A stretch of DNA of 45,949 nt, taken from the NCBI GenBank assembly GCA_020349905.1, contig CP070702.1:1807778-1853726 (forward strand). The letters are read 5' to 3'. Shown piece after piece: positions 40-34,449 of this stretch (positions are counted from its first letter, which is position 1; every line of letters starts with the position of its first letter). The stretch is from Candidatus Eiseniibacteriota bacterium. GTDB lineage: Bacteria > Eisenbacteria > RBG-16-71-46 > JAFGJU01. The notes beneath the pieces were generated by a model that was given only the letters and a program-made list of their open reading frames with translations, had not been told where the DNA came from and ran no database searches. The position numbers and the translations under genes were made by a program.

Positions 40-43
40 AAGC

Positions 44-140: not shown

Positions 141-149
141 TTGAGAGAA

Positions 150-2736: not shown

Positions 2737-2774
2737 GCAACGAACAGGCGCTGGCTTGAAGGGCGCCCAAAGCG

Positions 2775-2810: not shown

Positions 2811-2845
2811 ATCCTGAGCGGGCGGCAGACCAGCGTCTGCGGCGC

Positions 2846-4747
2846 TCAGCGCCTCAGCAGGACGAGCTTCCTTGAGAGCCCTCCCTTCTCGCCTTCGAAC
2901 CTGAGGAAGTAAACGCCCGTTCTTACATCGAGCCCTTCATCGCTCTTCCCGTCCCAGCTGAAGGGGTTTACCCCCGCGGACAGGTTACCTTCATGAAGCG
3001 TGCACACTAACCTTCCCGCAACGTCGTAAATAGCCAGACGGCCTGACTGACCAGCCTTGAGGGAGAGGCTTATGTCTGCAGAACTGTGGAACGGATTGGG
3101 CCTGCTCGAAAGACGCACAGAAGGAACAGACGGCGCCCGGACGAGGACCTTCTCTCCCGAAAGTACGACCTCCATACGGGTCCCCCCCACCCCGGCGCAG
3201 GTGGCTTCTCGCAGGAGAAGCTCTGTCTGCTGTCCCACTCCCAGCCTGCCTGCAAAGGAGACTTCACAGAGGCGCCCCGCACCGGCCGAAAGCTGGCCAC
3301 CCTCAACGTCCACGACCATGAGAGAGAGGATTCCGTTCGAAGCGGAAAAGAACAGCTCGGTTCCCTCCGGTACTCCAGAGAGCGCCGCGTCCTCAAACGT
3401 GAGCACTGATTCGTCATACTCTATCCTGGCCTCAACTCCTCCGACGCCTACTGAAGAGGAGAAGAGAAGAGGAACAGTGAGACGGCCTCCCCCATCCCAA
3501 GACACGTCATCCGACAGCCCTACGCTGACCGGTTCGGCGGAGAGCTCGGAGCTGCCCGCTCTGTCCACGCACCAGTAGCAAAAGGTATCCAAGATGCTCC
3601 TGATGCAGCACACGACGTCCGCAACGTTCAGCACGTTGTCCCCGTTGCAGTCTCCCCTCGCGATCTCCTCGGGAGTGCAGCATCCTTCCGGAATGGGGCA
3701 CATGATGCAGCGGATCATCCTCACTATGTCCACGACGTCCCTGCGACCGTCTCCGTTCAGGTCACACATGAGAGTGTTTCTGATGCAGACCCTTCCGGTG
3801 ATGGGTGCGAACGTGGGGCAGTCCGGCACGGTCCGGCCGTTCTCGTCCGAGAAGGCCACCGGGTGCAGCAGGACGTCAAACATGAACTCGGGCATCGGGT
3901 GGGTCCAGATGACGCTGTCCACGTCCATCTCTATCCAGATCTTAGCCACGGGGCCATCTCCGGGTTCTATGAGCTCGAACCCGTACGCACCATTGGAGCC
4001 GGGCATCTGCATCGGGTACAGCATGAAGTGCAGCGAGCTTCCGTCGAAGGTCCAGTCCACACCCATACCCAGAGCGCGCCCCACGGGTTCCACCCCACTG
4101 ACGTTCACTCTGAAGCCGCAGCGAGTGCCGGGTTCGCAATTCTCCATGCGGTATTGCTGGAAGGGCTCCACTATCAACTCCACGCCGGCAATGGGCATGG
4201 GGTTGGACAGGGTCACAGTCAGAGCGCCCGGATTCCCGGGGAACACGGTCGCGTTGCACGCGTACTGGCCCGGGGCGAATCCGGGCATCACGCAGTAGTC
4301 GACAGGCCCGCAGTTCTCCCGGACCGTGAAGGGAACTGACTTCTCGTCGTAGAACGCGGTGGAGTCACCTGAATCCACTTCAACGACCATCAGCGTGTAC
4401 GGGCCGGGAGGAAGCGCGCCAACATTGTGAGAGATGTCGTAGGGAATGATCACCCTTGTAATGCACGCGTCCCCCTCTTCTCGGTGACAGAAGACCCGCA
4501 TTCTGTAGACCGTGAAGAGGCCTTCGGTCGGAAGAATCTCGACGTCGTAGCCGTCGTAACTCCAGCATCCGTCCGGGAAGTAACCGACCACGTCGAAGCG
4601 CACCGAGTCGCACACGGATGGCTCAGGCGGAACAATCGCCACCTCCTGTATGAAACCCATCGCGACGGGGGGCAGTGCGAGTCCCAGCAGGACCGCGGCG
4701 GTCACGAGTGATAGGGTACCAAGAGCTGAGGAGCCGAAAACTCGCAT
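2846..4747 (-). CDS. Secreted cohesin-like/dockerin/cohesin-like protein with FlgD-like tail
   Basis: A 633-residue exported protein. ATG 4747 follows AGGAGGT at 8 nt. Residues 1-31 are a signal peptide. Residues about 150-310 look like a cohesin-type beta-sandwich. Residues 328-390 are a type I dockerin with two calcium-binding repeats (DLNGDGRRDVVDIVRMI and DCNGDNVLNVADVVCCI), enriched in cysteine (CIMC, EGCC, VVCCI, FCYWC). Residues 405-535 are a second cohesin-like domain ('VGGVEARIEYDESVLTFEDA'). Residues 545-633 are a FlgD/T9SS-type sorting domain with SRPNPF and a final LLRR. Dockerins bind cohesins in multiprotein surface assemblies; the presence of both partners in one chain suggests self-association or intramolecular pairing, which is inference. 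It has its own promoter at 4888-4917. Confidence 0.85.
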   Translation of the reverse strand: MRVFGSSALGTLSLVTAAVLLGLALPPVAMGFIQEVAIVPPEPSVCDSVRFDVVGYFPDGCWSYDGYDVEILPTEGLFTVYRMRVFCHREEGDACITRVIIPYDISHNVGALPPGPYTLMVVEVDSGDSTAFYDEKSVPFTVRENCGPVDYCVMPGFAPGQYACNATVFPGNPGALTVTLSNPMPIAGVELIVEPFQQYRMENCEPGTRCGFRVNVSGVEPVGRALGMGVDWTFDGSSLHFMLYPMQMPGSNGAYGFELIEPGDGPVAKIWIEMDVDSVIWTHPMPEFMFDVLLHPVAFSDENGRTVPDCPTFAPITGRVCIRNTLMCDLNGDGRRDVVDIVRMIRCIMCPIPEGCCTPEEIARGDCNGDNVLNVADVVCCIRSILDTFCYWCVDRAGSSELSAEPVSVGLSDDVSWDGGGRLTVPLLFSSSVGVGGVEARIEYDESVLTFEDAALSGVPEGTELFFSASNGILSLMVVDVEGGQLSAGAGRLCEVSFAGRLGVGQQTELLLREATCAGVGGTRMEVVLSGEKVLVRAPSVPSVRLSSRPNPFHSSADISLSLKAGQSGRLAIYDVAGRLVCTLHEGNLSAGVNPFSWDGKSDEGLDVRTGVYFLRFEGEKGGLSRKLVLLRR

Positions 4748-19901: not shown

Positions 19902-21139
19902 GCCTCCCTCAGGCTTAGAGCAGACGTTGGATTGACTTTCAAGGCGAACCAGACCGGATATATGGACGCGACCACCGTTGACGCCAGAGCCACGGCGAAT
20001 GCAAATGGAATCATCCAGAAACCCATGTCGGAATACATCGTGGGTTCGAAGAGCACTCCGGAAAGAGCCGTATCTCCTCCCAGTACCCCTGAGAAATCGA
20101 TTCCTCTCGTGGCAGTGTGGTATACCACCGGCGTGATGAGAAGCAATCCCGTAACCGCTCCTATGGCTCCAACCACCAGCGCCTCCAGGAAGATCAATCT
20201 CACAATCTGGACGCTCTTCATGCCAAGAGCCACGAGCACCGCGAACTCCCGCTTTCGCTCAAGGACCGCCGTCAACCGGGCGCTGGTGATGCCCAGAATG
20301 ACGACCAGGATGACGATGCCGATGATGATATTCCTGAAGGCCCGATCGCCGGCCAGGTCCCCGGCCTGCTCAGGCAGTATCTCTCTCCAGGTAATGACCG
20401 CGTCGCCTTCGGGAATCGACTCCCGAAACTTGGGTACCATGCGGGCGATGTGCCTGTAGTCGTTGAGAGTGATGGATATCTCACCCGCCCCCTCCAGGCC
20501 CGTCAGCGATTCCATGTCCTCAAGCGTAACGTGACATATGGAAGCGTCCATCTCGCGACTACCGGTGTCTATGATCCCTACTATTCGCAGCATGCCGTAT
20601 TCCACGTTCCCGTCCTTGGCGGCCACGGTAATAAACAAGTCGTCGTCAAGCTCGACGTCCAGTCGCTGCGCGATGGTGCTTCCTATCACTGTGGCCCCCC
20701 TGTCGCCTTCCTCAAGATACCTGCCCTCACTCACGGCTCGCGCGATGCGACTTATCCTCTGCTCGGCCGGGGGATCCACACCCAGCATTTCTGCGCCGGT
20801 CACTCGTGTCCCGAACGCAAGCAGCGCCGTGGTGCGAGCGTGAGGGGCCGCCACCTTCACTGCCTTTGACGATCGCACCGCCTCCAGGTCTGCGCTCATG
20901 TTCTGGAGACGAAGCTCGTTCTCGCGGTTCTCTTCCCAGCCGGCAGGTGCAATCCTCATGTGACCGAATCCGCTGTCCGCAATCGAGCGGAATCTTATCT
21001 CGTTTCCACCCCGAGAGAAAGAAACCATGAACATGGCTATCGCACAACCCACCCCAACGCCGATGACGGACAGCAGTGTTCTGCGCACTTTGCGCCTCAG
21101 AGTGCGCACTGCGAATTTTGTTATGAGCGACACTCTCAC
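19898..21139 (-). CDS. FtsX/LolC-type ABC permease (second)
   Basis: A 413-residue permease. The start is taken as GTG 21139 (VRVSLITKFAVRTLRRK), which overlaps the TGA of the previous permease as GTGA; an upstream in-frame extension is inside that gene. An N-terminal helix (about 20-40) is followed by a periplasmic MacB-type domain ('GADMLGVDPPAEQRIS'-like region near residue 115) and three C-terminal helices (about 275-410). Length is identical to its partner, so the two probably form a heterodimer. It should extract or move lipoproteins or other periplasmic cargo using the LolD-type ATPase. Confidence 0.88.
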   Translation of the reverse strand: MRVSLITKFAVRTLRRKVRRTLLSVIGVGVGCAIAMFMVSFSRGGNEIRFRSIADSGFGHMRIAPAGWEENRENELRLQNMSADLEAVRSSKAVKVAAPHARTTALLAFGTRVTGAEMLGVDPPAEQRISRIARAVSEGRYLEEGDRGATVIGSTIAQRLDVELDDDLFITVAAKDGNVEYGMLRIVGIIDTGSREMDASICHVTLEDMESLTGLEGAGEISITLNDYRHIARMVPKFRESIPEGDAVITWREILPEQAGDLAGDRAFRNIIIGIVILVVILGITSARLTAVLERKREFAVLVALGMKSVQIVRLIFLEALVVGAIGAVTGLLLITPVVYHTATRGIDFSGVLGGDTALSGVLFEPTMYSDMGFWMIPFAFAVALASTVVASIYPVWFALKVNPTSALSLREA

Positions 21140-22377
21140 GGACGCATTGCCTCCACCGGATGCAGCCTGGCGATGTGCACCATGGGCCACACAACAGACA
21201 CGATCGACGTAAGAAGCACAGCGATGACGCCAAAAGCAACATCACTCGGATACATGCGGGGAATCACTCGCGATGATGCATAGATTCCTTTGAAGGCCAT
21301 CTCAAACGAGGCGTCCCTTCCCCCCATGGCGGCATAGTCTATCCCTGATTTCGAAGTCAGAATCACAAGAGCCAACGCGAAAGCCGTCCCCACAGCTACA
21401 CCCAGAAGACCCAGAACGGCCGACTCAAAGGCTATCATCCCTGACAACCGATTAGGACCGCATCCCAACGAGAGCAACATCCCGAATTCGTGCCTCCGTT
21501 CAAACGTAGACATCAACATCGTGTTGGCGATGCCGGCCATCGCGGCGATGAACACGATCAGCAAAATGAAAAACCTAAATCCAGTCATCAAGTCGATCAG
21601 CGAAACGAGCTCCGGGACGATTTCCCTCCAGGGCAACACCTCTTCGTCTGCCAGAGCCGGAAGGGCCGAAAGGCGAGCCACTGTACTGGGAATCACATCC
21701 GTGTCGGCCACGTGAATGACGATCTCGTGCGCCTGCTCTGGCATCATGAATAGCTCCTGCGTCTCCTCTAGCTTCATCACGATGCCCAGACTGTTTACGA
21801 TGTCAACCGAAGTTGAGATAAGATCTGTGACCACAAACAAATCGTTGGCTATCGAACCGTCCACGTCCTGCCCGATTACTGCTATCTCCATGCCGGGCTC
21901 GATGCTGTTCTTGCGCGCAAAGGATCTACCGACCAGCACACGGTGGTCCCCTACTTGCCGCGAGAAGTCCTGTCCGGCCAGGAGACCCGATGGGTGTGAT
22001 TCAACGATAGGGTCCACCCCTATCACGACCCCCATGAAACCCTCTCCCTCGGTGGCAATCATGGCCGGGGCGTAGATGCGGGGAGACGCGTACTTGACCT
22101 CCGGGTCTTCTCGGACGGCCCAGAGAGTGGTCTCCAGATTCTCGAGAGTCAGGTCGAGCGAACGGTCCTCCCTCCAGCCTGGTGCGTGAACCTGGATGTG
22201 ACCCACCATGGGTCCCGTCACTGAATTGAGATACACCTCTCCGTAGCCGTTCATGAGAGAAGACGTGGCCAGAAATCCGAATTGACCCACTGCTATCGCC
22301 GTAAGCGCAAGAAGCGTGCGCTTTCGATTACGCCCCAGGTTGCGCCATGCAATTCGAAAAGTCTGATTCGATAACAT
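21136..22377 (-). CDS. FtsX/LolC-type ABC permease (first)
   Basis: A 413-residue permease starting at ATG 22377 (MLSNQTFRIAWRNLGRNRKR) with a weak AAGAG upstream. The helix at 20-42 is followed by a periplasmic MacB_PCD-like domain, including 'GVVIGVDPIVESHPSGLLAG', and C-terminal FtsX helices with 'FILLIVFIAAMAGIANTMLM' and FERRHEFGMLLSLG, the family coupling-helix region. It belongs with the adjacent permease, ATPase and LolA-like gene, resembling the LolCDE lipoprotein-release machine in layout. Confidence 0.9.
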   Translation of the reverse strand: MLSNQTFRIAWRNLGRNRKRTLLALTAIAVGQFGFLATSSLMNGYGEVYLNSVTGPMVGHIQVHAPGWREDRSLDLTLENLETTLWAVREDPEVKYASPRIYAPAMIATEGEGFMGVVIGVDPIVESHPSGLLAGQDFSRQVGDHRVLVGRSFARKNSIEPGMEIAVIGQDVDGSIANDLFVVTDLISTSVDIVNSLGIVMKLEETQELFMMPEQAHEIVIHVADTDVIPSTVARLSALPALADEEVLPWREIVPELVSLIDLMTGFRFFILLIVFIAAMAGIANTMLMSTFERRHEFGMLLSLGCGPNRLSGMIAFESAVLGLLGVAVGTAFALALVILTSKSGIDYAAMGGRDASFEMAFKGIYASSRVIPRMYPSDVAFGVIAVLLTSIVSVVWPMVHIARLHPVEAMRP

Positions 22378-22415
22378 TCTGCTCTTTCGAGTTCTCCGAG
22401 GATTACAGGTTTTTG

Positions 22416-23264
22416 CTAACGCTTCCGCTCAAGCTGAGAGAGACTGAAAATACTGTCGTCCAATCTCAGGTCAAACTCCACGTGGAGGTACCGCAGTTCG
22501 GTGCTACGGCCTTCCTCTTGCTCCGGAACGATCGTGAACAGAGTCGGTATAAGCCGGCGACCGAACTTCTTGACTCCCTCGAGTCGCATCGTGCGCGAGA
22601 GACGACCCTTGCGGTCGAAATACTGAATCTGCACAGGAAGCTCGGTCTCCGGCGAGAAGACTATCTCGACGCTCTCCCAGAGTCCGGCGACGTCGGGCTT
22701 CGCGTCCAATCGCACCTTCCAGCCCGGAGGGTCAGAGGATACTCCGACGAGTTGAGACGTATAGTCTTCCTCGTACGACGACTCGCGGACCAGATCGTCG
22801 TTGGTGAGGTCGCTTCCCATCCAGGAACCCATCATAAGAGAGGGGGGAACGCGGATGGTGCGCGCTATTTTGGGCAGATAGTTCCAGAGATTCCTCCCCA
22901 CCCGCAGTGTTGCGGTACCTGCGTCGCGGGCTGGGGCGTCTATGACTATGAGCGCCATGTCTTCGCCCTTGGCCCAGGTGCGCACGCGCATGGTTCTGGT
23001 CTTCCGGGGCCTCACGGTCGTTATCTCCAATCGCGCAAACGTACCGGAGGACTCGTACGTCTCGTCGAACTTCCTGAGAAGGTACTTGACGTCGGGCGCT
23101 TTCTCCAGAGAGGGAGGCTTCGGAGTTTCTTCAGAAGCGGCGAGGGCGCGGGGGTGGGCGCCCGTGGTCCAAAGAAGGGTCACCAGAATAACAGTTGCGG
23201 TGACGCCAAAAACCGGACGGGCTCTCCGATATCTGCTGCGGCACCTGCCCGAGGTCGGAACCAT
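22416..23264 (-). CDS. LolA-like outer-membrane lipoprotein-sorting protein
   Basis: A 282-residue exported protein. The ATG at 23264 follows GAGGAG at 7 nt; the open frame runs to 23390 without support. A basic N-terminus and a hydrophobic helix (VFGVTATVILVTLL) form the signal sequence. The mature part has the family signature GSWMGSDLTNDDLVRES and the 'RNLWNYLPKIARTIRVPPSL' segment of the COG2834/LolA_like family. These proteins are thought to carry a hydrophobic cargo across the periplasm. Being first in the operon with FtsX-type permeases, a LolD ATPase and a barrel, it may pass cargo between the ABC machine and the outer membrane. Cargo is unknown. Confidence 0.88.
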   Translation of the reverse strand: MVPTSGRCRSRYRRARPVFGVTATVILVTLLWTTGAHPRALAASEETPKPPSLEKAPDVKYLLRKFDETYESSGTFARLEITTVRPRKTRTMRVRTWAKGEDMALIVIDAPARDAGTATLRVGRNLWNYLPKIARTIRVPPSLMMGSWMGSDLTNDDLVRESSYEEDYTSQLVGVSSDPPGWKVRLDAKPDVAGLWESVEIVFSPETELPVQIQYFDRKGRLSRTMRLEGVKKFGRRLIPTLFTIVPEQEEGRSTELRYLHVEFDLRLDDSIFSLSQLERKR

Positions 23265-23380
23265 GGTTTTTCTCCTCGCTACGTGTGATTCGCTTCTCGT
23301 TGCGCGGCGGGTCGTGTCCTGTTCCTTGCCGCACGCTCCACCCTGTCCGGCGGCACGACTGCTCGTGCAGTCAACTTCGT

Positions 23381-23409
23381 ACCATACCAAAGAGTCGCCC
23401 TCGAATCAA
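23381..23409 (-). promoter_or_regulatory. Sigma70-type promoter for the LolA-like/ABC operon
   Basis: Minus strand TTGATT (23409-23404), 17-nt spacer, TATGGT (23386-23381), about 115 nt upstream of the ATG at 23264. It lies just past the terminator of the upstream gene. Confidence 0.55.
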
Positions 23410-23556: not shown

Positions 23557-24195
23557 CTACCTAAAAAGCCCCTTGATCTTGCCCCAAGTGGTCGTCTCGA
23601 CGGACACGGGGTCGCCGTAGCAGGTCACGTCCTGCACACCACCCCACTGGGCGTTGCCGCCCACAGCAGTGTTCTGGTCGTAGAGACTCGCACAGTTGAT
23701 GACCCAGTTATGCCCCAGGTCGGCGTTGCCTACGATGTTGAAGTACGTCGCATTTGTGCTCTGGGCGAGATACCTGAGGTAGCCCACGTGTTTCCGCCAC
23801 TGGTAACAGGGGCCTGTGGACGATATGATGATGGCCGCCGGCTCCATTGCTTGCGAAGGGCCTTTCAGAAAACCTGCGCAGGCCGTGACCGTCAGAAAAA
23901 TGGGGTTGCCGCCGGAGCTCGTAACGCCGAAGGGAAGGCCGAGGAAACCGTTTTCCACCTGTCCCACGTGCACGGACAGGAGGCCGGTGGCAGAGCCGCT
24001 GCTCTTGGCCGAGTAGCACGGGAGCAGCGCGGGCGGCACCAGCGAGCAGTTGCAGACGGAGTCCGGCACCGGGCTCGGCATGCTGGCGAAGTCAAAGATC
24101 TCCAGAAACAGACGCGGGCTTGCGTTTCCCTGCGCCAGAGCCAGCGCGGGAACGATGAGACAGGAGAGTACGACCAGTATCAGTAACGCCTTCAT
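23557..24195 (-). CDS. Secreted protein with C-terminal TTTWGKIKGLFR tag
   Basis: A 212-residue secreted protein of unknown function. The ATG at 24195 is preceded by GAGGAGG; the longer frame to 24255 would begin inside the promoter. Residues 1-22 are a signal peptide (MKALLILVVLSCLIVPALAL). The mature region has several cysteines (VCNCS, a CYS further on, CAGF, CYQW) and no recognised domain. It ends in TTTWGKIKGLFR, matching the tail of the unrelated secreted protein at 2125-2736 (TTWGRLKSLFFK). It is a stand-alone unit, with promoter at 24255-24282 and terminator at 23458-23497. Confidence 0.8.
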   Translation of the reverse strand: MKALLILVVLSCLIVPALALAQGNASPRLFLEIFDFASMPSPVPDSVCNCSLVPPALLPCYSAKSSGSATGLLSVHVGQVENGFLGLPFGVTSSGGNPIFLTVTACAGFLKGPSQAMEPAAIIISSTGPCYQWRKHVGYLRYLAQSTNATYFNIVGNADLGHNWVINCASLYDQNTAVGGNAQWGGVQDVTCYGDPVSVETTTWGKIKGLFR

Positions 24196-24254
24196 GTCCT
24201 TTCCTCCTCGGTGCAGGCCACAACTGAGCGCACGCAGCGGCACAGAGATAATCA

Positions 24255-24282
24255 ACTATAGAAAGCGACCCTCCCAAGTCAA
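24255..24282 (-). promoter_or_regulatory. Sigma70-type promoter for the 23557 gene
   Basis: Minus strand TTGACT (24282-24277), 16-nt spacer, TATAGT (24260-24255), about 55 nt upstream of the ATG. The stretch 24283-24446 up to the preceding gene holds a perfect 12-bp palindrome ACCTCCGGAGGT (24380-24391) and a 9-bp hairpin (24401-24429) without a T-run. Confidence 0.75.
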
Positions 24283-24446: not shown

Positions 24447-25241
24447 CTACTCGGGCACCACTACGTATTCCAGACCGAACCCTGCATCTTCAAACACGCC
24501 CCCGTACTCTTCGGAAGGAACGCCCTCGCAGCTGCGCAGCACGAGGAGAGAGTATGTCTCGGCTCCGAGGCGGATTTGCTCAACTATACCTACCTCCACG
24601 GACGTGGTCTGACCCTCGACAACCACAAGCACGGGCACCGAGTAAGTGGTGCCATACTTGCTCTCACCAATTATTGCCTCTCGTTGGTTCGCCTGGCGAA
24701 TGGACAATTCCTTCCAGATTCGGGATCTCTGCGGGACAGGGCCGAAGAGTCGACCAGAGGTGACAATCAGATCACCAGCGCTCAGGGCGACAAGGTCATA
24801 CGAGAGCCCGGCCGCATAGAATTCGGCGTCGCGCCGCAACGAGAACGGACGGTTTGGGGCGAGTAATATCCTCAACCCCGCCGGCAATCGGTAGACGAGG
24901 TGACCTGTCTGTTGATGGTCGGAGAGGAACGTGACCTTTCCGTCCTCCACGGCGCTGACTTCACCGCGCACGTTCCAGTCTCCTGTGAGCAGCTTGCCGG
25001 CAAGATCCGCTGCGAACGCGAGCGGGATCTCGTCCGGAACACTCGCCTCTCCTTCCAGATGTCCCGACCTCACCGCGTCAGGCATCTGGAGTTCGGAGGA
25101 CGCAGTGGCCGGCACCGGTGGCTCCTTCTCCGCCGTCGGTTGCCTCTTCCTCTGGCAGGACGTAGTGAGTACAAGGCCAAGAAGTAGGAGAGTGGCGGCC
25201 AGAACCAGGAAGCCGACTGCCCTCTTCCCAAAAGCGTTCAT
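24447..25241 (-). CDS. Partner lipoprotein A of the metzincin module
   Basis: A 264-residue probable lipoprotein of unknown family. ATG 25241 follows GGAGG at 5 nt, 26 nt after the metzincin stop. A hydrophobic helix is followed by LTTSCQRK, an imperfect lipobox. It is exactly as long as its paralogue at 27033-27827 and shares SSEL.MP.AV, GKLL..DW..RG.V, GKVTF.SD..QTGH.VY, LPAGL, SGRLFGP-like segments and the C-terminal LEYVVVPE. The mature part looks beta-rich. Both copies sit directly downstream of a metzincin lipoprotein, so it may be a chaperone, inhibitor or co-receptor for that protease; this is inference from context. Confidence 0.75.
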   Translation of the reverse strand: MNAFGKRAVGFLVLAATLLLLGLVLTTSCQRKRQPTAEKEPPVPATASSELQMPDAVRSGHLEGEASVPDEIPLAFAADLAGKLLTGDWNVRGEVSAVEDGKVTFLSDHQQTGHLVYRLPAGLRILLAPNRPFSLRRDAEFYAAGLSYDLVALSAGDLIVTSGRLFGPVPQRSRIWKELSIRQANQREAIIGESKYGTTYSVPVLVVVEGQTTSVEVGIVEQIRLGAETYSLLVLRSCEGVPSEEYGGVFEDAGFGLEYVVVPE

Positions 25242-25267
25242 AATCTCCTCCAATCGTTCGACGTCCA

Positions 25268-26953
25268 TCAGTTTTCGTTCCATTCGGAGCCTGCCACGCG
25301 GAAGTTGAGTTCTATGTTGGCCCAGTCCGGGAAATCCTGGATGACCGTCTTGTCTGCGTCCGCGTCCAGATTCACGCGAACACTAGTCTCTATTTCTTCG
25401 TCCATGTCCCAATCCACAGGAGTCTTGTCACACATTCCCTCGCTTTCGTCCAATTCCCTCTCGTTGAGCTCTCGACGCTGACCCTGCGAGTATGTGAACA
25501 CGTTGTCAATATTGCTGAGATCGCAGTCTGCGTCGATTCCTCCCAGCTGTCCCGGGCTGCACGGTGGCCAGCTCGAAATGTAGTAGGTTTCGCTGGCATC
25601 GTTTCCATATTGCATGATGCTATTGTAGTTGTCCTTGGACAGTACGTCGTCAGAGCCCCCGTGACGCAGACCCAGAGTGTGACCGAGCTCGTGCAGAAAC
25701 GTACCTACCTGAAACTCGGGTATTCTACCCTCGGACCCCCAGGAGTGCAGGGAAATGAAGAAATCATTGGCCACCAGACCTTCCGCTTTACCGCTCGACT
25801 TGCCTGTTCCGTAACCGCTCTGATAGGCAAAGATGCAGTAGCGATAGACCTTCAGGCGATGTTTATTGAAGTGCTCATCCTTGAGGCGTTGAAAGTTGAC
25901 GCAATCCGCCGAGCTGTCGAAATCCGGGGGCTCGTCGTCCTCGCGAATGGCACAGGAGAAACCGATTGTTTCTCCTCCTTCATCACCGGGCGAGTCTCCA
26001 ACGTCGAGATGAATGGCTATCCCCTGGCTACCGTCGGCATTGAGAATCGGGGCCTTCTCAAACGTCGCTTCTATGTCTGCCCAGATGGACCCGTCCGGCT
26101 CGCAATCTTCCATCCAATCTACTTCCACGAACAAGTCCTTCCGCCAAGGCTCGGCACCCAGAGCAGGAAGGTCCACATCAACACCACCGTCACCGTCGCT
26201 GTCGTAGCCGTCCTTCTCCCACACGTCCAAAAGCCCGTCCCCGTCACTGTCCAGCTCGTCCATGCTGGCCGCTATGTGGTACGTCAACGTATTCGACGTC
26301 GCACCATCCAGATTCTTCACCGCCACTGAAATGTCTGAATCGGGAACCTGATTCTGGATGAAAGTCCATGTTGTAGCGTAGTGAAATATGGGATAGCCCA
26401 GCGTTGAAGGGTCCGATGCGTTCATGGCACCGTTCCGAAGCAGCCGAGAAAAGAAGGACATCACTGCAGTCCCATCGATAATGATCTGGGCACCCACGTC
26501 TATGTTCGCTCCGTGCGCCATAAGCACCATGGAGGCTTTGCCTCCAGGGTCGATGTCGAAGGCAACGACCGTCACGTCGTCTAAGCGCGGCACAGGACGT
26601 ACGACTCCATCTGTCACCTCGAAATCTATCTTGTTGTCGGAGTATTCACCGTCTCCGTGAAGCTGAACCGGGTACTGCCCGGGCTCTGCCTCCGAAGGCA
26701 CCGTAAAGAATCTGGCTCCCAAGAAGTCGCTCGGGAGAGTCTGTTCGGATGGGGTGTTCGCATTCCACCTGACCGTTGCGAGGAGCAGGTTGCCTCCTTT
26801 GATTTCAACGACGGTTCCAGGTGGCCCTTCCCGGGGGTCCAGATCGTCAAGAACCGGCTTGCACCCGAGACCCGACAACGCCGTCGCAATTAAAACAACT
26901 GCTACCGGGCGAACCAGGGATGATAGTGCCCTCGCAGACAAGTTTGCGTTCAC
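25268..26953 (-). CDS. Lipoprotein metzincin metallopeptidase A
   Basis: A 561-residue exported metallopeptidase. The start is GTG 26953, 8 nt after AAAGGAGG; the frame extends to 26983 but that would precede the ribosome binding site. Cys31 in SGLGCKPV is a lipobox, so the protein is anchored to a membrane. Residues about 35-115 resemble an IPT/TIG domain (DLDPREGPPGTVVEIKGGNL). Residues 230-290 contain a thrombospondin-3-like calcium motif (DSDGDGLLDVWEKDGYD) and LPALGAEPWRKDLFVEVDWM. The catalytic motif HELGHTLGLRH lies at 421-431 and the Met-turn NSIMQYG 16 residues later, both complete. This is the pappalysin-like/metzincin pattern. Target proteins are unknown. Confidence 0.88.
   Translation of the reverse strand: MNANLSARALSSLVRPVAVVLIATALSGLGCKPVLDDLDPREGPPGTVVEIKGGNLLLATVRWNANTPSEQTLPSDFLGARFFTVPSEAEPGQYPVQLHGDGEYSDNKIDFEVTDGVVRPVPRLDDVTVVAFDIDPGGKASMVLMAHGANIDVGAQIIIDGTAVMSFFSRLLRNGAMNASDPSTLGYPIFHYATTWTFIQNQVPDSDISVAVKNLDGATSNTLTYHIAASMDELDSDGDGLLDVWEKDGYDSDGDGGVDVDLPALGAEPWRKDLFVEVDWMEDCEPDGSIWADIEATFEKAPILNADGSQGIAIHLDVGDSPGDEGGETIGFSCAIREDDEPPDFDSSADCVNFQRLKDEHFNKHRLKVYRYCIFAYQSGYGTGKSSGKAEGLVANDFFISLHSWGSEGRIPEFQVGTFLHELGHTLGLRHGGSDDVLSKDNYNSIMQYGNDASETYYISSWPPCSPGQLGGIDADCDLSNIDNVFTYSQGQRRELNERELDESEGMCDKTPVDWDMDEEIETSVRVNLDADADKTVIQDFPDWANIELNFRVAGSEWNEN
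26259..26344 (-). repeat. 86-nt block identical to 28824-28909 (copy in metzincin A)
   Basis: These 86 nt match 28824-28909 without mismatch by eye, with single differences at 26258 and 26345 bounding the block. It encodes the segment before the DSDGDG motif. Flanking sequence is similar but clearly diverged, especially towards the catalytic half, so this may be a gene-conversion tract between the two metzincin genes. Confidence 0.85.
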
Positions 26954-27032
26954 AGCCAGTTCCTCCTTTGTGTCAAGATTCACTTTCGATGTGAGTCGCT
27001 TTTGTCACGAAGGTGCACAACAGGGCTACGCC

Positions 27033-27827
27033 CTACTCGGGCACTACTACGTATTCCAGATCGTAGCCCGTGCCCTCAGCCACTCCCACGTAATCCTGGG
27101 TCGGAACGGTCTCGTTGCTTCGCCAGACCAGCAGGGAGTACAGACCTCCTCTGGTCCTCACGCGAACGGGACTGCGCAGCGGAACCGTGGTGGTCCGGCC
27201 GTCGGCCGTCACGGTCACGGAAATCTGATATACCTTGCAGTATTTGCTGTCCAGGGCGACGGGGCCCCTGTCCCGCACCTGCTGGATGCTCAGACCGGTG
27301 GACGTTCTCTTGTCCAGAGGGTCAGGACCGAAGAGGCGGCCCGCCTCCATCAAAGGGTGGCCGGAGTCGGAGGCAACAAGGTCGTACGCCAATCCCCTTC
27401 CGCACAATTGAATCGTGCGCTTAAGAGAAAAGGGCTGGCCGGGATTCAGAGATATTTCCAGCCCGGCCGGAAGATGATAGACGAAGTGACCCGTCTGTCG
27501 TGCGTCCGATTCAAACGTAACCTTGCCCCTCTCGAAGGCCCTAACGTGGCCCCTCGCTTCCCAGTCCTCAACAAGCAGCTTGCCGTCAAGGTCGACCGCA
27601 AATCCGAGCCGGACCTCCTCCGGAAGGGCGGCCTCACCCCGGATCTCCGTCTCGCTCACGGCAGGAGGCATAAGCAGCTCAGAAGATACCTCCTCCGACA
27701 CAGGCGGCTCTCTCTCTGCTACCGGCTTTCTCTGCCCTGCGCATGAAAGGGAGACCGCCAGTACCAAGAGCAACCCGAGGACCCTCAAAAGGTACGGACC
27801 TTTGATTCTGCTTTCAGGAACAGACAT
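27033..27827 (-). CDS. Partner lipoprotein B of the metzincin module
   Basis: A 264-residue probable lipoprotein. ATG 27827 (MSVPESRIKG) follows GGAGG at 5 nt and is 23 nt after the metzincin B stop; the open frame to 27908 would overlap that gene. A hydrophobic helix is followed by SLSCAGQRK, a weak lipobox. It is paralogous over its full length to the 24447-25241 protein and ends in the same LEYVVVPE. The same gene order, spacing and length in both copies show that the pair was duplicated as a unit. Function unknown. Confidence 0.75.
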   Translation of the reverse strand: MSVPESRIKGPYLLRVLGLLLVLAVSLSCAGQRKPVAEREPPVSEEVSSELLMPPAVSETEIRGEAALPEEVRLGFAVDLDGKLLVEDWEARGHVRAFERGKVTFESDARQTGHFVYHLPAGLEISLNPGQPFSLKRTIQLCGRGLAYDLVASDSGHPLMEAGRLFGPDPLDKRTSTGLSIQQVRDRGPVALDSKYCKVYQISVTVTADGRTTTVPLRSPVRVRTRGGLYSLLVWRSNETVPTQDYVGVAEGTGYDLEYVVVPE

Positions 27828-27850
27828 GGCTTCCTCCACTCGGGCTCGTA

Positions 27851-29518
27851 TCAGTTTTCTTCCCACTCTGACTCTTCCTGCCGGAAGTCGAGCTCCACGT
27901 TGGCCCAATCCGGGAAGTCCGTGATGATGGTCATCTCATCGTCCAGATCCAGATTCACAGAAACGTCGTCTCTGTAGGGGCCGTGTCCGTCCCAGTTGAT
28001 GGGCTTGTTGTCGCAGAGCCCAACGTTCTCGTTCAGACCGGTCTCGTCAAGCGTGTCGCGCTGGCCCTGGGAATATGTATAAACTGCGTCGGTGTTTCCT
28101 AGGTCGCAGTCCACGTCTATCCCCGCATACATGCCCGGGCTGCAGAAATAGCAGCCACAGTCGGGCGTGTACTTGGCGGACTCGTTCCTATCTAGGTCCG
28201 CGCAGTTACCGTACTGCATCACGCTGTTGTAGTTGTCCTTCGAATCCGTGTTGTCGGCCCCCCCGTGACGCAATCCCAGAGTATGGCCCAACTCGTGCAT
28301 GAATGCGCCCACCAAATATCTCACCGGAGGAGCCGAGCCTGGGTAGGACCCGTGGAGAGAGATGAAGAAGTCGTTACACAATATGCCCTCGGATTTCCCT
28401 CCTCCGTCGCCGTGTCCGCTTTCCCAGGCGAATATGCAATAGCGATACACGTTAAGCCTCGCAAGTTCGAAGTACGCCTCCTTGAGTTCATGAAAGCTGA
28501 CCGTGTCTGGACGAGGTTCCGTATCGTAGATGATCACTTTGGGACAGTCGATCTCATTTCCACCTCCGTCTCCGGTAGTCCCCCCCCTGTCAATGTGAAT
28601 GGCGATGCCCTGGCTACCGTCCGAGTTGAGGATGGGGGCGCGGGCAAACGCCTTTTTTACGTATGTCCACATGGCTTCGTCGGGTTTGCAGTACCTCATC
28701 CAATCCACTTCCACGAACAAGTCCTTTCGCAGCGGTTTTGCACCAAGAGCAGGGAGGTCCACGCTGCCGTAACCGTCCTTCTCCCACACGTCGGGAAGTC
28801 CGTCACCGTCACTGTCCAGCTCCTCCATGCTGGCCGCTATGTGGTACGTCAACGTATTCGACGTCGCACCATCCAGATTCTTCACCGCCACTGAAATGTC
28901 TGAATCGGGGACCTGATTCTGGGTGAAACACCATATTGTGGCGTAGTGAAAAATGGGATAGCCCAGCGTTGAAGGGTCTGATGCGTTCATGGCACCGTTC
29001 CGAAGCAGCCGAGAGAAGAAAGACATCACCGGAGTCTCATCCATAATGATCTGGGCGCCCACGTCTATGTTTGCTCCGTGCGCCATCAGCACCATGGAGG
29101 CTTTGCCTTCCGAATCGATACTGAATTTCGAAACCGTCACGTCGTCAAGTCGCGGCGCGGGGCGAACCACTCCGGCAACGACTTTGAACTGTATCTCGTT
29201 GACGGAGTAATCACCGCCCCCGTAAAGCCTGACCGGATACTCTCTAGGCTCGGCCTCCAAAGGCACCGTAAAGAAGCGTGCTCCCAAGAAACCGCTCGGA
29301 AGAGTCTGCTCGGAAGGAGTGTTCGCGTCCCACCTCACGGTCGCCCCGAAGAGACGGCTTCCCTTCACTTCAACGACGGTTCCAGGTGGCCCTTCCAGCG
29401 GGTCGAGATCTTCAAGGACCGGCGTGCATCCTGAAACCATGGGGAGCGCTGCCAGAAGCGGCAACATGACCATGGGAATGAGCGACCAAGACATCTTTGC
29501 GAGGGGCAAAGCATTCAC
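27851..29518 (-). CDS. Lipoprotein metzincin metallopeptidase B
   Basis: A 555-residue paralogue of metzincin A. The start is GTG 29518, 8 nt after AAAGGAGG; an earlier frame start at 29578 would span that site. Cys31 in VSGCTPVL is the lipobox cysteine, at the same position as in A. An IPT/TIG-like domain is followed by a highly conserved region (MVLMAHGANIDVGAQII, FFSRLLRNGAMNASDPS), a shorter calcium motif (DSDGDGLPDVWEKDGYG), HELGHTLGLRH at 408-418 and the Met-turn NSVMQYG. A cysteine-rich insertion (DCGCYFCSP) lies after the active site. The copies share N-terminal and active-site parts more than their other regions, suggesting different substrate range. Confidence 0.88.
   Translation of the reverse strand: MNALPLAKMSWSLIPMVMLPLLAALPMVSGCTPVLEDLDPLEGPPGTVVEVKGSRLFGATVRWDANTPSEQTLPSGFLGARFFTVPLEAEPREYPVRLYGGGDYSVNEIQFKVVAGVVRPAPRLDDVTVSKFSIDSEGKASMVLMAHGANIDVGAQIIMDETPVMSFFSRLLRNGAMNASDPSTLGYPIFHYATIWCFTQNQVPDSDISVAVKNLDGATSNTLTYHIAASMEELDSDGDGLPDVWEKDGYGSVDLPALGAKPLRKDLFVEVDWMRYCKPDEAMWTYVKKAFARAPILNSDGSQGIAIHIDRGGTTGDGGGNEIDCPKVIIYDTEPRPDTVSFHELKEAYFELARLNVYRYCIFAWESGHGDGGGKSEGILCNDFFISLHGSYPGSAPPVRYLVGAFMHELGHTLGLRHGGADNTDSKDNYNSVMQYGNCADLDRNESAKYTPDCGCYFCSPGMYAGIDVDCDLGNTDAVYTYSQGQRDTLDETGLNENVGLCDNKPINWDGHGPYRDDVSVNLDLDDEMTIITDFPDWANVELDFRQEESEWEEN
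28824..28909 (-). repeat. 86-nt block identical to 26259-26344 (copy in metzincin B)
   Basis: The second copy of the identical tract; the first mismatches are at 28823 and 28910. Confidence 0.85.
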
Positions 29519-29656
29519 GGTCGGCTCCTCCTTTCCGAAAAAAGGATCGCCTTCAGTTCCTCCTGTGTGCTTCATCACATCAATGCTGCGATACTCTCCT
29601 CGCTCTCCATCGCACGCTCTCCGGCACTCCCCCCTGCGAGGGGTGACACCACGGGA

Positions 29657-30883
29657 CTAGCCGGAAGCGGCTCCTTTCCTGGCCGCCTCGGCTAGAATCC
29701 TCCATCGTTCCATCTCTTCTGCCACACCCGGAGGGGTAAGAACGCTCTCGAGTAGACCGGGCTGTTCGGGGAAACGTGCGCGGTACTTCGAGACCACCCG
29801 AGCGAATGCGCACTGGAAATCCGGTACGCGATGCGGGTCGGTGTTTCCGGCAGCGTGCCCTATGGAAACGGGACAGATGCCACACGTGGAGACATGCTCG
29901 CACTCGTCACAGCGCCCGTGAGAGGAGTATTTTTTCTCCCTGTGGTGAAATATCTCTGCACGTCGCACGGCCTCAGGATAAGCGGCGTAGCGCGCAAGGA
30001 ACCCAGGCGCTCTCAGGTCACCCATCCGCATCGGGTCCAGTCGTTCCTCCAGGAACCGTGAAGGAAACCCCTGATACGAGCGGGCGAACAAGGTGCAGCC
30101 GTAGACCTCGCCGTCAACGTCCACCGTGAGCTTGTGCCCACTCATCACGCCGCACATCGCACGCTCTGCCTTCCGGGGTGAAACATCATCGCCCGTCTTT
30201 CGCAGAAACTGCAGCGGGACTTCTCCTGTCAGTCGATAATGCCTCAGACAGCTCTCGTACACCCGTTCCATTTGGGAGTCGAGCTCTTGGATGTCGTCTT
30301 CTTTCCATTCGGAACAGTCAGTAACGGCAGGAGAGACAGAGAACTCGCGCACACCTCTTCCGATGAGATAATCCACGCTGCCGGAAAGATGCACCACGGT
30401 GCTCGGCGTCAACGTGGCGGCCACTCTGAGCTTCCGCCGAAAGAAGCCGGGACGCTCGCTCTTGAGCCATTCCAAAAGCCGGTCGAGCCGGCCAAAGCTC
30501 CCCTCGGAGCGAGACTCCTGAGCTTCTGCGGCGCCGTCAAAACTGAGCTTCACGCCGAAGTTGTGTGCGATGAGGAAGTCGACTCTCCGCTGCGCGAGGA
30601 GGAGTCCGTTCGTTATGAGCTCGAAGTTCACCCCTTTCTCCGGAGGGCACTTCTTCGCTACGTACCTCACTGCCCGTCGTATTGCAGGAAATTCCAGTAG
30701 CGGTTCGCCCCCCAGAAACACCAGGTCCAACTTCTCACTGTCCGCCTCAAGTGCCATGTCCAGAGAGGCCTTCAAGACCTCCCAGCTCATGCTGAGAGGC
30801 TTCTTGGCGTTCTGGTAGCAGTATGCACACCGCTGGTTACACTGAGCAGTGAGAATGAGGCTTAGACACCCTAGCGTCTGCAC
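29657..30883 (-). CDS. Radical SAM/SPASM peptide-modifying enzyme
   Basis: A 408-residue radical SAM enzyme. The start is GTG 30883; GGGGAGG lies 12 nt before it, a long spacing, so the start is somewhat uncertain. The cluster motif CNQRCAYC (Cys15, 19, 22) binds the 4Fe-4S cluster, and FLGGEPL (57-63) is the GGE SAM-binding motif. A SPASM domain with two auxiliary clusters is suggested by Cys244, 263, 325, 328, 334, 337 and 358 (RAMCGVM, VYGCTLF, GRCDECEHVSTCGIC). SPASM enzymes modify peptides or proteins, as in sactipeptides, PQQ and sulfatases. No RRE/PqqD-like domain is seen. The gene follows a small Cys-rich repeat protein by 204 nt and precedes two secreted metzincin modules. Confidence 0.88.
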   Translation of the reverse strand: MQTLGCLSLILTAQCNQRCAYCYQNAKKPLSMSWEVLKASLDMALEADSEKLDLVFLGGEPLLEFPAIRRAVRYVAKKCPPEKGVNFELITNGLLLAQRRVDFLIAHNFGVKLSFDGAAEAQESRSEGSFGRLDRLLEWLKSERPGFFRRKLRVAATLTPSTVVHLSGSVDYLIGRGVREFSVSPAVTDCSEWKEDDIQELDSQMERVYESCLRHYRLTGEVPLQFLRKTGDDVSPRKAERAMCGVMSGHKLTVDVDGEVYGCTLFARSYQGFPSRFLEERLDPMRMGDLRAPGFLARYAAYPEAVRRAEIFHHREKKYSSHGRCDECEHVSTCGICPVSIGHAAGNTDPHRVPDFQCAFARVVSKYRARFPEQPGLLESVLTPPGVAEEMERWRILAEAARKGAASG

Positions 30884-30958
30884 GTCTTGATCGAACCTCC
30901 CCGCGGACCGAAATGGCCGAGATTCCGGCCCGTGAGCGGACCGCCACGTATTAGACAG

Positions 30959-31010
30959 CCGTGGCCACGGAAAGGGTGAAGGCCATAGGACTGTGAACGA
31001 CGGCCACCCT
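30959..31010. promoter_or_regulatory. Palindrome and hairpin between the repeat protein and radical SAM genes
   Basis: A perfect 12-bp palindrome CCGTGGCCACGG lies at 30959-30970, beside an inverted repeat (AGGGTG at 30973-30978, CACCCT at 31005-31010, plus an inner GCC/GGC). A minus-strand TAATAC at 30953-30948 could be a -10 element. It may be an operator or an RNA structure that sets the ratio of the two genes. No T-run follows, so it is not a clear terminator. Confidence 0.4.
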
Positions 31011-31087
31011 GTCTACAGTGGCACCCGTCGACGTAATCAGGCCACTCCGGATTCCGCAGAATGAACCCGGTCAGAGATTCTGCCAGA

Positions 31088-31642
31088 CTATTTGTGGAAC
31101 GGAAGGGTCGTGCCCGCCTCAGCGCTGCAGACTACCTCTTCGATATACTGAATCCAGCGTCGTATCTTTGCCAGAACCTCACAGATGTGTTCTGTGGTGA
31201 CTTCTTTGTCCCCCTCGGGTGGGTCAATGCCGCAGGTGTGGTCGACCTGTGACGATACGGGAGGGCCGCCACCGCAGGTGTGGTCCACTTGAGTCAGAGT
31301 GTCTTTCCCGCCTTTGGACTTGGCGACGGGAGTGTTTGATTTCACTCGCTTGAGCGTTTTCTGCAACTCCTTTATCATGTCCGAGATCTGGCGAAGCGCC
31401 TCTACAATTTCAGGGGCCACGAAGATCTTATTAGAACGTCCGGAACTACTGGCAACCATCGGGTGCCTCCATGCAGCGGGCCGAAAGGCCCTGTTTCCTA
31501 GCTCAAGCACCTCGACGTTTTCCCAACGACTTCCAGGTGAGACATCGGAAAACGATACGGGGTGCGTTCCGAGAAGCGTCTCTATCGACTTGCTCTTGTA
31601 CGACGACGCTGCTGTCACGTCGCTGTAGCTGCTAACGCTCAC
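31088..31642 (-). CDS. Small Cys-containing protein with duplicated QVDHTCG motif, candidate radical SAM substrate
   Basis: A 184-residue protein from GTG 31642. The start is uncertain because the GGAGGTG ribosome site overlaps it. No signal peptide is present. Residues 1-70 are Ser-rich, 75-100 form a helical charged segment (EIVEALRQISDMIKELQKTL), and 118-145 hold two copies, 14 residues apart, of QVDHTCG followed by PP. A C-terminal helix with Cys154 and Cys172 follows. Synonymous codon differences between the copies indicate selection on the peptide. It lies between a kinase gene (15 nt upstream) and a radical SAM/SPASM gene, which makes it a candidate RiPP-type precursor or modified protein. 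No family is recognised. Confidence 0.65.
   Translation of the reverse strand: MSVSSYSDVTAASSYKSKSIETLLGTHPVSFSDVSPGSRWENVEVLELGNRAFRPAAWRHPMVASSSGRSNKIFVAPEIVEALRQISDMIKELQKTLKRVKSNTPVAKSKGGKDTLTQVDHTCGGGPPVSSQVDHTCGIDPPEGDKEVTTEHICEVLAKIRRWIQYIEEVVCSAEAGTTLPFHK
31229..31291 (-). repeat. Two QVDHTCG repeats (42-nt period)
   Basis: Codons 118-124 and 132-138 encode the same heptapeptide with different codons (CAA/CAG, GTG/GTC, GGT/GGC), each followed by a GG or ID pair, then PP. Confidence 0.9.
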
Positions 31643-31657
31643 CTCCCTACTTGAAAT

Positions 31658-34255
31658 TCAGTAAGTGCCTTGCTCGGCCTCCAGAACCCAAACGTGTCCT
31701 TTGGTCGGGTTTCTCCAGGGGTACGCAAGAAGCCGCCCGTCGGGGGAAACATCGAACAGCGCCCCTTCCGGCATCTGTACTACCGGACCGACGTCTTCTG
31801 TTTCCCGTCCGTCCAGAAAGACCCTGCTCAGCGTGTACTCATCCCGACCCCAGGTTCCGCTCACCAGCAGCCCTCCCGTAGATGAGTCCCAGCGCATGCG
31901 CATCACTCGGGCACCCTGCGTAACTTGCTGCGGCGGTCCGCTGCCGTCGGCCGGGACGATCCACGCCTCCATGTCGTTGCTATGTATTCCCAGAAAGGCG
32001 ATCCACTTTCCGTCAGGCGACCAGGTCGGAGCTTGAGCCGTAACCTCGCCGCTGGTAATGCGCCGGGCGGGTCCTGTTCGACTGCCGTCCCTTACCGGAG
32101 CGGTCCAGATGTGGGTTCCGCCTTCCCTGCTGGATGCAAACGCCAGCATGGAACCGTCTGGCGACCAACACGGGTGGACGTCCGTTGCCTCTTCTGAGAA
32201 CCTGGTCGGTCGCCCCCCGGAAACGGGGATGGTCCATATGCTGCGTTCCTGGTCCATTATGCGATAGTAAGCGATCCACTTTCCATCGGGCGAGAACGCC
32301 GGGTGTGAGGCACCGCCTTCGTGGTCGGTCAGGCGCCGCGGTTCACCCCGGGGCTTGTCTTGTTCCAGAGGCTGCACCCAGAGGTCGTACTTGGTGCCCC
32401 ATCGTTTGGATATGAAGACCATCTTGCTCCTGTCCGGCGAGATTGCAGGCATGCTGGCATCGCGAAGGCTGGACGCTCTCACCTCTTCTCCGGAGCGCAT
32501 GTCCCTGACGGCTATGCCTTCTTCCTGCATTCTGGTGGAGTAGACAAGCTTCGTGCCGTCTCTGCACAGGCTGGGTTCGCTTTCCCATCCGGTACCCAGG
32601 GAAACCCGCTCCGAGCGTCCCCGTTTGCGGCTCACACGCCAGAGCGCCAGCGTGCCCTCTCTGTAGGACGAGAAGTAGACGTGACGCCCATCAGGAGCCC
32701 ACGCCGGCTGGGAGTCCATGTTGCCCCCCGAGGTCAGAGGCCTGGCTTTGCCTCCTGTAGACGGGACGATCCAGACGTCGTGGCGGGTGGCGTAGCATAT
32801 CTCTTTTCCGTCAGGCGACCAGACGGGATAACGGTGGTCCCACAAGCCATCGCGGTCGCCAGTAAGCACTGTCACGTCAGACGGGTTGGCTAGAGACGCC
32901 ACCGCGATGCGGCTGTTTCCACCCGGTTCGTCCCTGGAGAAGGCTACTCGCCTGCCGTCAGGCGATATGGCGGGAAACTCGGCGGCTTCAAGCAGCAGGG
33001 TCGGACTGCCTCCGAGTTGCCCCACCTTCCACACGCCCCTTCTTCCTCCGCGGCCGGAGACAAAGGCGAGGCTGCTCCCGTCAGGAAACCAGGTGGGTTG
33101 CTCGTCCGCCGCAGGACTGTACGTCAGCTGAAGAGGATTACCTCCTCTTATGTCGATGACGTAAACGTCGGGATTCCCTGACACGTCCGATACGTAAGCA
33201 ATGCGGCCTCCGTCAGGAGAGATTTCCGGCTGGCGGTGCCAGGCGTCTGCACTGGTAACCTTAAGCGACTGGCCCGGGGGAATCGGCCCTTCCCGGTCCC
33301 TGATTAAAAGCCACACGATCACGAGAGCAACCGCGATGGCCGCGGCCCCGACCAGGATGACCGGGGGGGAAAGTGTGGGAAGGACCCTCCTTTGACCCCG
33401 GGAGAACTCCCAGGCCCTGGAGGTAGAATACCTCTGAATCTCTATTTGTTTCTTAAGCTTACGCAGGTCAGAAAGCAGTTCCTTGACGCTCTGATAGCGG
33501 TCCTCGACGCGCTTTGCCAGAAGCCTGCCCATTATGCCGTCCAGCTCCGGCGGCACACCCGGGCAGACGACGGAAAGCGGCTGCGGGTCCTCGTTCAGGA
33601 TACGGTAGGCCACTGCCTGTTCGTAGTCACCTGTGAAGGGCAGCCGCCCGCTCACCATCTCGTAAAGCACCACACCGAACGACCATATGTCGGTTCTGTA
33701 GTCCAGTGCCTCCCCGCGCGCTTGCTCTGGCGACATGTATGCCACCGTGCCCACTGTCGTGCCCGTGGTTGTCACTCTGACCCTGCCCGGCAACTTGGCG
33801 AGGCCAAAGTCCATGATTTTCGCCTCGCCCTTTGGGGTAACCATGATGTTGGCGCTCTTGATGTCACGATGGATTATGTCCTTCTCGTGCGCGGCCTGTA
33901 GCCCCTGCGCGATCTGAACACCAAGGCCTACGGCCTCGTCCAGGTCCAGGGGACCCGATTCGATCCTGTCCCTCAGGTTCAGACCCTCGACGTACGCCAT
34001 CGCGATGAAAGTGGCGTCGCCTGCCTCGTCTATCTCGTGGATGGTGCAGATGTTGGAGTGGTCAAGCGCGGCTGCGGCCTGGGCTTCGTAGAGAAAGCGG
34101 GTCTTCTCGTCCTTGCTGCCCAAGGCGCGGGGGGATAGGAACTTCAGAGCGACGGTTCGCTTGAGCTTGGTGTCCTCGGCCCGGTACACCACGCTCATTC
34201 CGCCCTCACCTATCTTTTCAAGGATTCGGTAGCGAGAAACCGTCTCCCCTATCAT
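31658..34255 (-). CDS. Transmembrane Ser/Thr protein kinase with TolB-like beta-propeller
   Basis: An 865-residue PknB-type kinase. ATG 34255 follows GGGAG at 7 nt. The cytoplasmic kinase domain (about 9-270) has glycine-rich loop GEGGMSVVYRAED, ATP-binding Lys in VALKFL, catalytic HRDIKSANIM (129-138), DFG (149-151) and SPEQARGE. A transmembrane helix at about 297-317 is followed by an extracytoplasmic part of about 540 residues with repeated SPDG motifs (e.g. ISPDGGRIAYVSD, FSPDGKWIAYY, WSPDGKWIAFLG), a TolB/WD40-like propeller. The propeller probably senses a ligand or protein in the periplasm. It is the first gene of a cluster of seven on this strand. Confidence 0.93.
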   Translation of the reverse strand: MIGETVSRYRILEKIGEGGMSVVYRAEDTKLKRTVALKFLSPRALGSKDEKTRFLYEAQAAAALDHSNICTIHEIDEAGDATFIAMAYVEGLNLRDRIESGPLDLDEAVGLGVQIAQGLQAAHEKDIIHRDIKSANIMVTPKGEAKIMDFGLAKLPGRVRVTTTGTTVGTVAYMSPEQARGEALDYRTDIWSFGVVLYEMVSGRLPFTGDYEQAVAYRILNEDPQPLSVVCPGVPPELDGIMGRLLAKRVEDRYQSVKELLSDLRKLKKQIEIQRYSTSRAWEFSRGQRRVLPTLSPPVILVGAAAIAVALVIVWLLIRDREGPIPPGQSLKVTSADAWHRQPEISPDGGRIAYVSDVSGNPDVYVIDIRGGNPLQLTYSPAADEQPTWFPDGSSLAFVSGRGGRRGVWKVGQLGGSPTLLLEAAEFPAISPDGRRVAFSRDEPGGNSRIAVASLANPSDVTVLTGDRDGLWDHRYPVWSPDGKEICYATRHDVWIVPSTGGKARPLTSGGNMDSQPAWAPDGRHVYFSSYREGTLALWRVSRKRGRSERVSLGTGWESEPSLCRDGTKLVYSTRMQEEGIAVRDMRSGEEVRASSLRDASMPAISPDRSKMVFISKRWGTKYDLWVQPLEQDKPRGEPRRLTDHEGGASHPAFSPDGKWIAYYRIMDQERSIWTIPVSGGRPTRFSEEATDVHPCWSPDGSMLAFASSREGGTHIWTAPVRDGSRTGPARRITSGEVTAQAPTWSPDGKWIAFLGIHSNDMEAWIVPADGSGPPQQVTQGARVMRMRWDSSTGGLLVSGTWGRDEYTLSRVFLDGRETEDVGPVVQMPEGALFDVSPDGRLLAYPWRNPTKGHVWVLEAEQGTY

Positions 34256-34419: not shown

Positions 34420-34449
34420 AGTATATCACGGGATAGGCGCCAAGTTCAA
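34420..34449 (-). promoter_or_regulatory. Sigma70-type promoter for the kinase cluster
   Basis: Minus strand TTGAAC (34449-34444), 18-nt spacer, TATACT (34425-34420); start near 34413. The leader of about 155 nt contains a CTCACA/TGTGAG inverted repeat (34342-34360). No comparable promoter or terminator was found between the kinase and the gene at 24447, so the whole cluster may be one transcription unit. Confidence 0.65.

Follow-up and report, generated by a model that had tools for sequence, protein, structure and literature searches.

Gene content of the locus

The window analysed here is the whole 45,949-nt stretch of CP070702.1, taken from a genome that forms a single contig of 2.69 Mb, and the cluster of interest occupies positions 24447-34255 on its minus strand. 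An earlier note on this DNA had described seven genes running in the same direction without a recognised terminator. All seven ORFs were found on the minus strand where they had been placed, and no minus-strand terminator-like site was detected from the kinase stop to 24447, in a scan that overall stood at chance level. The features are listed from upstream to downstream:

34420..34449, minus strand: promoter-like site TTGAAC-18-TATACT with TG before the -10, upstream of the kinase (consensus match only)
31658..34255, minus strand: TM Ser/Thr kinase carrying a PD40 (TolB/WD40-like) beta-propeller (Pfam, motifs, tree)
31088..31459, minus strand: small Cys protein of 123 aa, candidate substrate of the radical SAM enzyme (ATG with GGAGG, codon bias, model, homologous block)
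31271..31291, minus strand: QVDHTCG repeat 1 (QVDHTCGGGPP), in the disordered loop of the model
31229..31249, minus strand: QVDHTCG repeat 2 (QVDHTCGIDPP), in the same modelled loop
29657..30883, minus strand: radical SAM/SPASM enzyme whose closest family is the ranthipeptide maturases (Pfam, NCBIfam, conserved cysteines)
27851..29518, minus strand: metzincin 1, a predicted lipoprotein starting at GTG 29518 behind GGAGG (Pfam, motifs)
27033..27827, minus strand: metzincin partner protein 1, likely exported (sequence)
25268..26953, minus strand: metzincin 2, sharing 66% identity with metzincin 1 (Pfam, motifs)
24447..25241, minus strand: metzincin partner protein 2, likely exported, 49% identical to partner 1

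The kinase starts at ATG 34255, preceded by the ribosome-binding site GAGGGGAGCC. Its description as a propeller-bearing Ser/Thr kinase held, as the protein matched Pfam Pkinase (2.5e-48) and PD40 (4.6e-69), contained a TM segment, and carried the P-loop, VAxK, HRD, and DFG elements of Hanks-type Ser/Thr kinases with its catalytic motifs intact (GEGGMSVV, VALK, HRDIKSAN, and DFG). For the small gene, ATG 31459, with GGAGG 8 nt upstream, is the most likely start, in preference to GTG 31642, from which a longer frame of 184 aa is also open.

Several further features were observed around the cluster. A TPP riboswitch (Rfam RF00059, 56.6 bits) lies at window positions 34-143 on the minus strand, and genes for a LolA-like protein and a LolCE/FtsX-like permease lie downstream of the cluster (21136-23390, minus strand). 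The minus strand also carries a good promoter-like sequence, TTGACT-16-TATAGT (10/12), at 24255-24282, where it closely follows the second metzincin pair and precedes a gene for a tagged 232-aa protein. The C-terminal tag, TTWG(K/R)(I/L)KxL(F/Y)R-stop, occurs on secreted-looking proteins in the window (23557-24255, minus strand) as well as in G000 and 38 other genomes. The pattern WGx[LIVFM]KxL[FY]R-stop was matched in 39 of the 47 phylum genomes, up to 25 times per genome, while the reversed control matched none. The tag has the appearance of a signal for sorting or anchoring that has yet to be described.

Recurrence of the first three genes

The earlier note had linked all of these genes functionally from their order and had suggested a search for the same order in relatives. 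We ran this search with the radical SAM protein against 47 genomes of the window's phylum, where four further orthologues were found (41-44% identity), and with a profile of the five radical SAM proteins against 396 genomes of a second phylum, where 21 matches in 20 genomes reached 1e-45 or better. We take the second phylum to be Acidobacteriota because it was reached via a Bryobacterales locus. The 13 best second-phylum matches (12 genomes) and all five first-phylum genes are each preceded by a PD40 kinase gene in the same orientation, at a distance of 326-775 bases. Kinase, small protein, and radical SAM genes stood in the same order and on the same strand at 18/18 loci in 17 genomes from two phyla, representing 17 copies besides the window's. 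At four loci (L019, L135, L138, and L141) the N-terminal part of the kinase was absent from the reading frame or the contig. One genome (G197) holds two separate cassettes (L140 and L143). The distribution is patchy, with the cassette present in 3/15 genomes of one order and 3/13 of one class. The trio recurs, but most other cassettes stop at the radical SAM gene, and conservation is confined to the first three genes: kinase, small Cys protein, and radical SAM enzyme.

Wider searches were also made. When the whole contig collection was searched with the first radical SAM profile, the best matches listed were ~28% identical and none of those listed had the kinase, which does not prove absence elsewhere. 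The 379 genomes of one Deltaproteobacteria MAG's phylum gave no radical SAM match at 1e-50. A full-text search of the open-licence literature returned no description of the trio, a scope that keeps this from being proof. We rate the cassettes as a new variant among radical SAM/SPASM maturation cassettes.

The radical SAM enzyme and its known relatives

The assignment of a SPASM radical SAM enzyme was borne out by the Pfam radical SAM match (9.4e-13; the SPASM match by itself was under its cut-off) and by the cysteines, with CX3CX2C and all seven SPASM cysteines invariant in 18/18 cassette enzymes and likewise kept in the sister clade described below. Identities among the cassette enzymes ranged from 23 to 52% across the two phyla. 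The 18 form a clade (support 100/99) against seven weaker matches that make up the sister clade. A small gene for a candidate substrate, as expected beside radical SAM/SPASM peptide maturases in general, adjoined the enzyme gene in 18/18 cassettes and 5/7 sister loci. The prokaryotic viperin model of PADLOC (pVip, 51 bits) was rejected, since it covers only the radical SAM core whereas the window enzyme has SPASM.

The best NCBIfam model for the window enzyme was PapB (NF047865; 151 bits, E 3.8e-44), well under the cut-off of 340, and three other cassette enzymes scored 105-147 bits. PapA/PapB (freyrasin) ranthipeptide maturation is therefore the nearest curated family, and it resembles the cassette in having a small Cys substrate gene beside the enzyme and SPASM clusters. 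It differs in that the proposed cassette substrate lacks a CX3D/E array, that of the window is modelled with helices flanking its Cys loop, and the cassette unit always includes a sensor kinase. The best solved relative in a profile search was 5wgg (2.8e-34), a radical SAM enzyme that we take to be a SCIFF/CteB-type maturase. The substrates of SCIFF/CteB-type and other SPASM peptide maturases differ from that of the cassette, and we know of no kinase neighbour among these systems. The third best family model was the QhpD-related TIGR03906. In the QhpC/QhpD system of quinohemoprotein amine dehydrogenase, a radical SAM/SPASM enzyme links Cys to Asp/Glu in a small protein subunit (PMC7876137), a precedent for a cross-linked small protein that serves as a subunit of a larger protein and not as a secreted product (PMC7876137). 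The Qhp partner is a dehydrogenase, whereas the cassette neighbour is a Ser/Thr kinase, and the Qhp unit has its own protease and exporter, neither of which belongs to the conserved unit of the cassette.

The small Cys protein

A Cys-containing small ORF was found in every gap between kinase and radical SAM gene (18/18 loci; 19 ORFs, as L019 has two). Every one of the 19 has an ATG start and contains Cys (chance 3e-6 to 7e-4, varying with the assumed Cys rate). A purine-rich ribosome-binding site was seen for most of them, as was codon-position GC bias, and on these grounds we consider them genes. None of the small proteins scanned was named by any model in Pfam, NCBIfam, or PADLOC. A 32-residue helix block is common to 7/19 (the window, L016, L017, L018, L135, L136, and L138), spanning both phyla. 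It scored above all 640 control fragments in leave-one-out tests, a result limited by the block having first been placed by eye. As independent evidence, pairwise shuffles gave z-scores of ~8 for window-L016, window-L017, and L018-L135, with a maximum of 8.2 for cassettes from different genomes. The proteins are extremely divergent in sequence, to the point that membership of one family is provable for only about 7/19. The two small proteins of L019, a locus from the window's family, are tandem paralogues (2232-2909, plus strand; pairwise z 17.5).

In the best model of the window protein, built from the single sequence, helices at 16-42 and 89-114 were predicted fairly confidently, and both QVDHTCG copies sit in the disordered loop between them. 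The motif does occur exactly twice, but "repeat protein" is a weak label for two short copies in an interhelix loop. Loops and tails of the other small proteins often read CPPP, DCPPPIKD, or ACPPPAG, or end in Cys. Two candidate core motifs were rejected: a general pattern of Pro after Cys (20/43 against a null of 14.5; 102/2000 shuffles as high, not significant) and a PapB-like CXnD/E spacing (Asp/Glu after Cys in 29/43 against a null of 26.2, not enriched). PapB accepts Cys that has an Asp/Glu close by and rejects the reversed DxxxC order (PMC9413430). In the window's DHTC, Asp precedes Cys, and in three small proteins Cys is at or adjoining the last residue, which fits poorly with a PapB-type downstream Asp/Glu acceptor.

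These data bear on the reading of the locus as a RiPP natural-product cluster, in which the small protein would be a precursor, its modified core would be cleaved from it and leave the cell as a bioactive peptide, the kinase would control production or tailor the peptide, and secreted M64 peptidases or metzincins would release or process it. A PapB-like maturase beside a small Cys peptide, the hypervariable loop of that peptide, and an M64 or metzincin gene directly 3' of the radical SAM gene in 4/16 loci with visible downstream DNA all point this way. Kinases also occur in known RiPP systems, namely TOMM kinase/cyclase proteins and class III/IV lanthionine synthetases, which likewise have kinase domains within peptide-modification systems, and the TOMM kinase/cyclase model TIGR03903 was among the kinase matches. 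However, those kinases are fused or tailoring, whereas the cassette kinase is a separate TM propeller sensor unlike known tailoring kinases, and the chemistry falls to the radical SAM enzyme. The unit holds no exporter or immunity gene, and the radical SAM gene is the last one in most loci. As to a conserved leader followed by a core, the helix block is shared by 7/19 and the window model has helices flanking the core; the second helix that several small proteins appear to carry after the Cys loop would be awkward in a leader-core peptide. We consider a RiPP natural product unlikely.

Metzincins and downstream peptidases

Both metzincins contain HELGHTLGLRH (HExxHxxGxxH) and a Met-turn (SVMQY/SIMQY), while Pfam Reprolysin matches were mostly under cut-off. 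The two pairs of metzincin and partner lipoprotein claimed earlier are both present, and by their sequences the pairs are tandem duplicates. The lipoprotein label suits them unevenly, with a clear lipobox in metzincin 1 (MVSG/C), a fair one in partner 2, and no canonical one in metzincin 2 or partner 1. The structure model of the metzincin partner was unusable (pLDDT 42).

The earlier note had offered, as a plausible reading, one system of all seven genes in which the kinase senses, the radical SAM enzyme modifies a peptide or protein, and the metzincins act as surface proteases; the metzincins would be the output of such a system. The short gaps and the missing terminator-like site agree with this, as does the M64 peptidase, from another family but a related clan, whose gene comes next after that of the radical SAM enzyme in three of the 15 other cassettes with visible downstream DNA (L016, L017, and L135). 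The metzincins themselves do not recur within the phylum. Among its 47 genomes, full-length homologues of metzincin 1 were found in this genome only, with catalytic-domain matches alone in 3 genomes, and a peptidase is absent from this position in 12 of the 16 cassettes whose downstream DNA is visible. Gene order therefore supports a functional link for the trio but not for the metzincins, which we rejected as part of the system's core, although the M64 genes leave a weaker form of the link standing. The proteases are optional and the metzincins a local add-on, and a single seven-gene system seems quite improbable.

The cassette kinases as a lineage

With 33 protein-kinase matches in its genome, the window kinase would be ordinary on its own. 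The anti-phage defence kinase models of PADLOC match any Hanks kinase domain, so their matches here were rejected as generic. The domain order of the window kinase is also that of many PD40-propeller Hanks-type kinases from related genomes, from which it differs in belonging to a separate lineage tied to a radical SAM gene. This was seen in a tree of 48 kinases, including 18 cassette kinases and 26 paralogues from the window's own genome. The cassette kinases and two others lay on one side of a branch with 100% SH-aLRT support, with all 26 home paralogues opposite, so that the window kinase groups with cassette kinases and apart from the paralogues of its own genome. Strict monophyly was rejected (AU test p 0.001; two paralogues inside the group), and we therefore claim a lineage and not a clade. 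Distances among the kinases correlated with those among the radical SAM enzymes (Spearman 0.38; 2/5000 permutations).

It could be argued that the radical SAM enzyme and small protein form the unit, and that the kinase is a co-regulated neighbour sharing the operon without physical partnership. The contact between kinase and small protein is one that we infer, and some members of the sister clade have regulators other than kinases, both of which leave room for this. Against it stand the lineage of their own that the cassette kinases form and a gene order held in 18/18 loci despite the divergence of the radical SAM enzymes in two phyla. We regard mere co-regulation as very improbable. Unrelated genes brought together by chance deserve almost no credence for the trio, as even in a genome so rich in kinases one would stand directly upstream of ~1-2% of genes by our estimate, against 18/18 here, and recurrence refutes the idea for the three core genes; for the metzincins, chance may account for the position.

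Signalling neighbours in the sister clade

The seven sister-clade loci have signalling-type neighbours but not the PD40-kinase order. A small ORF (63-74 aa) with Cys near the C-terminus precedes the radical SAM gene in five of the seven. Confirmed kinases with other sensor parts stand beside three of the enzymes: zinc ribbon-kinase-TPR proteins, convergent downstream, at L149 and L151, and a Reg_prop/Y_Y_Y propeller-kinase, divergent upstream, at L152. TPR proteins run off the contig end at L147 and L150, and TPR proteins/regulators lie upstream on the same strand at L146 and L148. That the pair of small protein and radical SAM enzyme adjoins unrelated sensor architectures is our main reason for proposing that the pair has a role in signalling.

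A proposed signalling cassette

We favour, as moderately probable, a three-gene signalling cassette in which the cross-linked small protein is the kinase's dedicated partner. Its starting points are direct observations, namely gene order, homology, conservation, and intact catalytic residues. The radical SAM/SPASM enzyme would bind the small protein encoded beside it through the helical portion of that protein, and by radical chemistry would modify the loop or tail in which the Cys lies. From established radical SAM/SPASM biology we infer that this modification takes place and is probably a thioether cross-link, as made by ranthipeptide maturases. Lacking a signal peptide, and with no exporter gene in the unit, the modified protein would remain cytoplasmic and partner the neighbouring TM kinase. 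The kinase would contact it either as its regulator or as its substrate, and input from the extracytoplasmic propeller would pass into the cell via the small protein. The two metzincin/partner pairs, likely surface proteins, would have been added downstream in this genome.

More generally, sensor kinases that differ in architecture (PD40 propeller, TPR, and Reg_prop propeller) might use a small protein that is active only after radical-SAM cross-linking, so that a bacterial kinase would have a partner made post-translationally, an extension that we hold tentatively. If this general principle is true, signalling of a new kind would be at work and not a natural-product cluster. Should the small protein be both substrate of the enzyme and partner of the kinase, radical-SAM peptide chemistry would have a role in intracellular signalling, and peptide cross-linking enzymes would gain a new family of small-protein substrates. 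Among the orphan kinases of these little-studied phyla, which number in the dozens, one lineage would then have ligands or targets open to testing.
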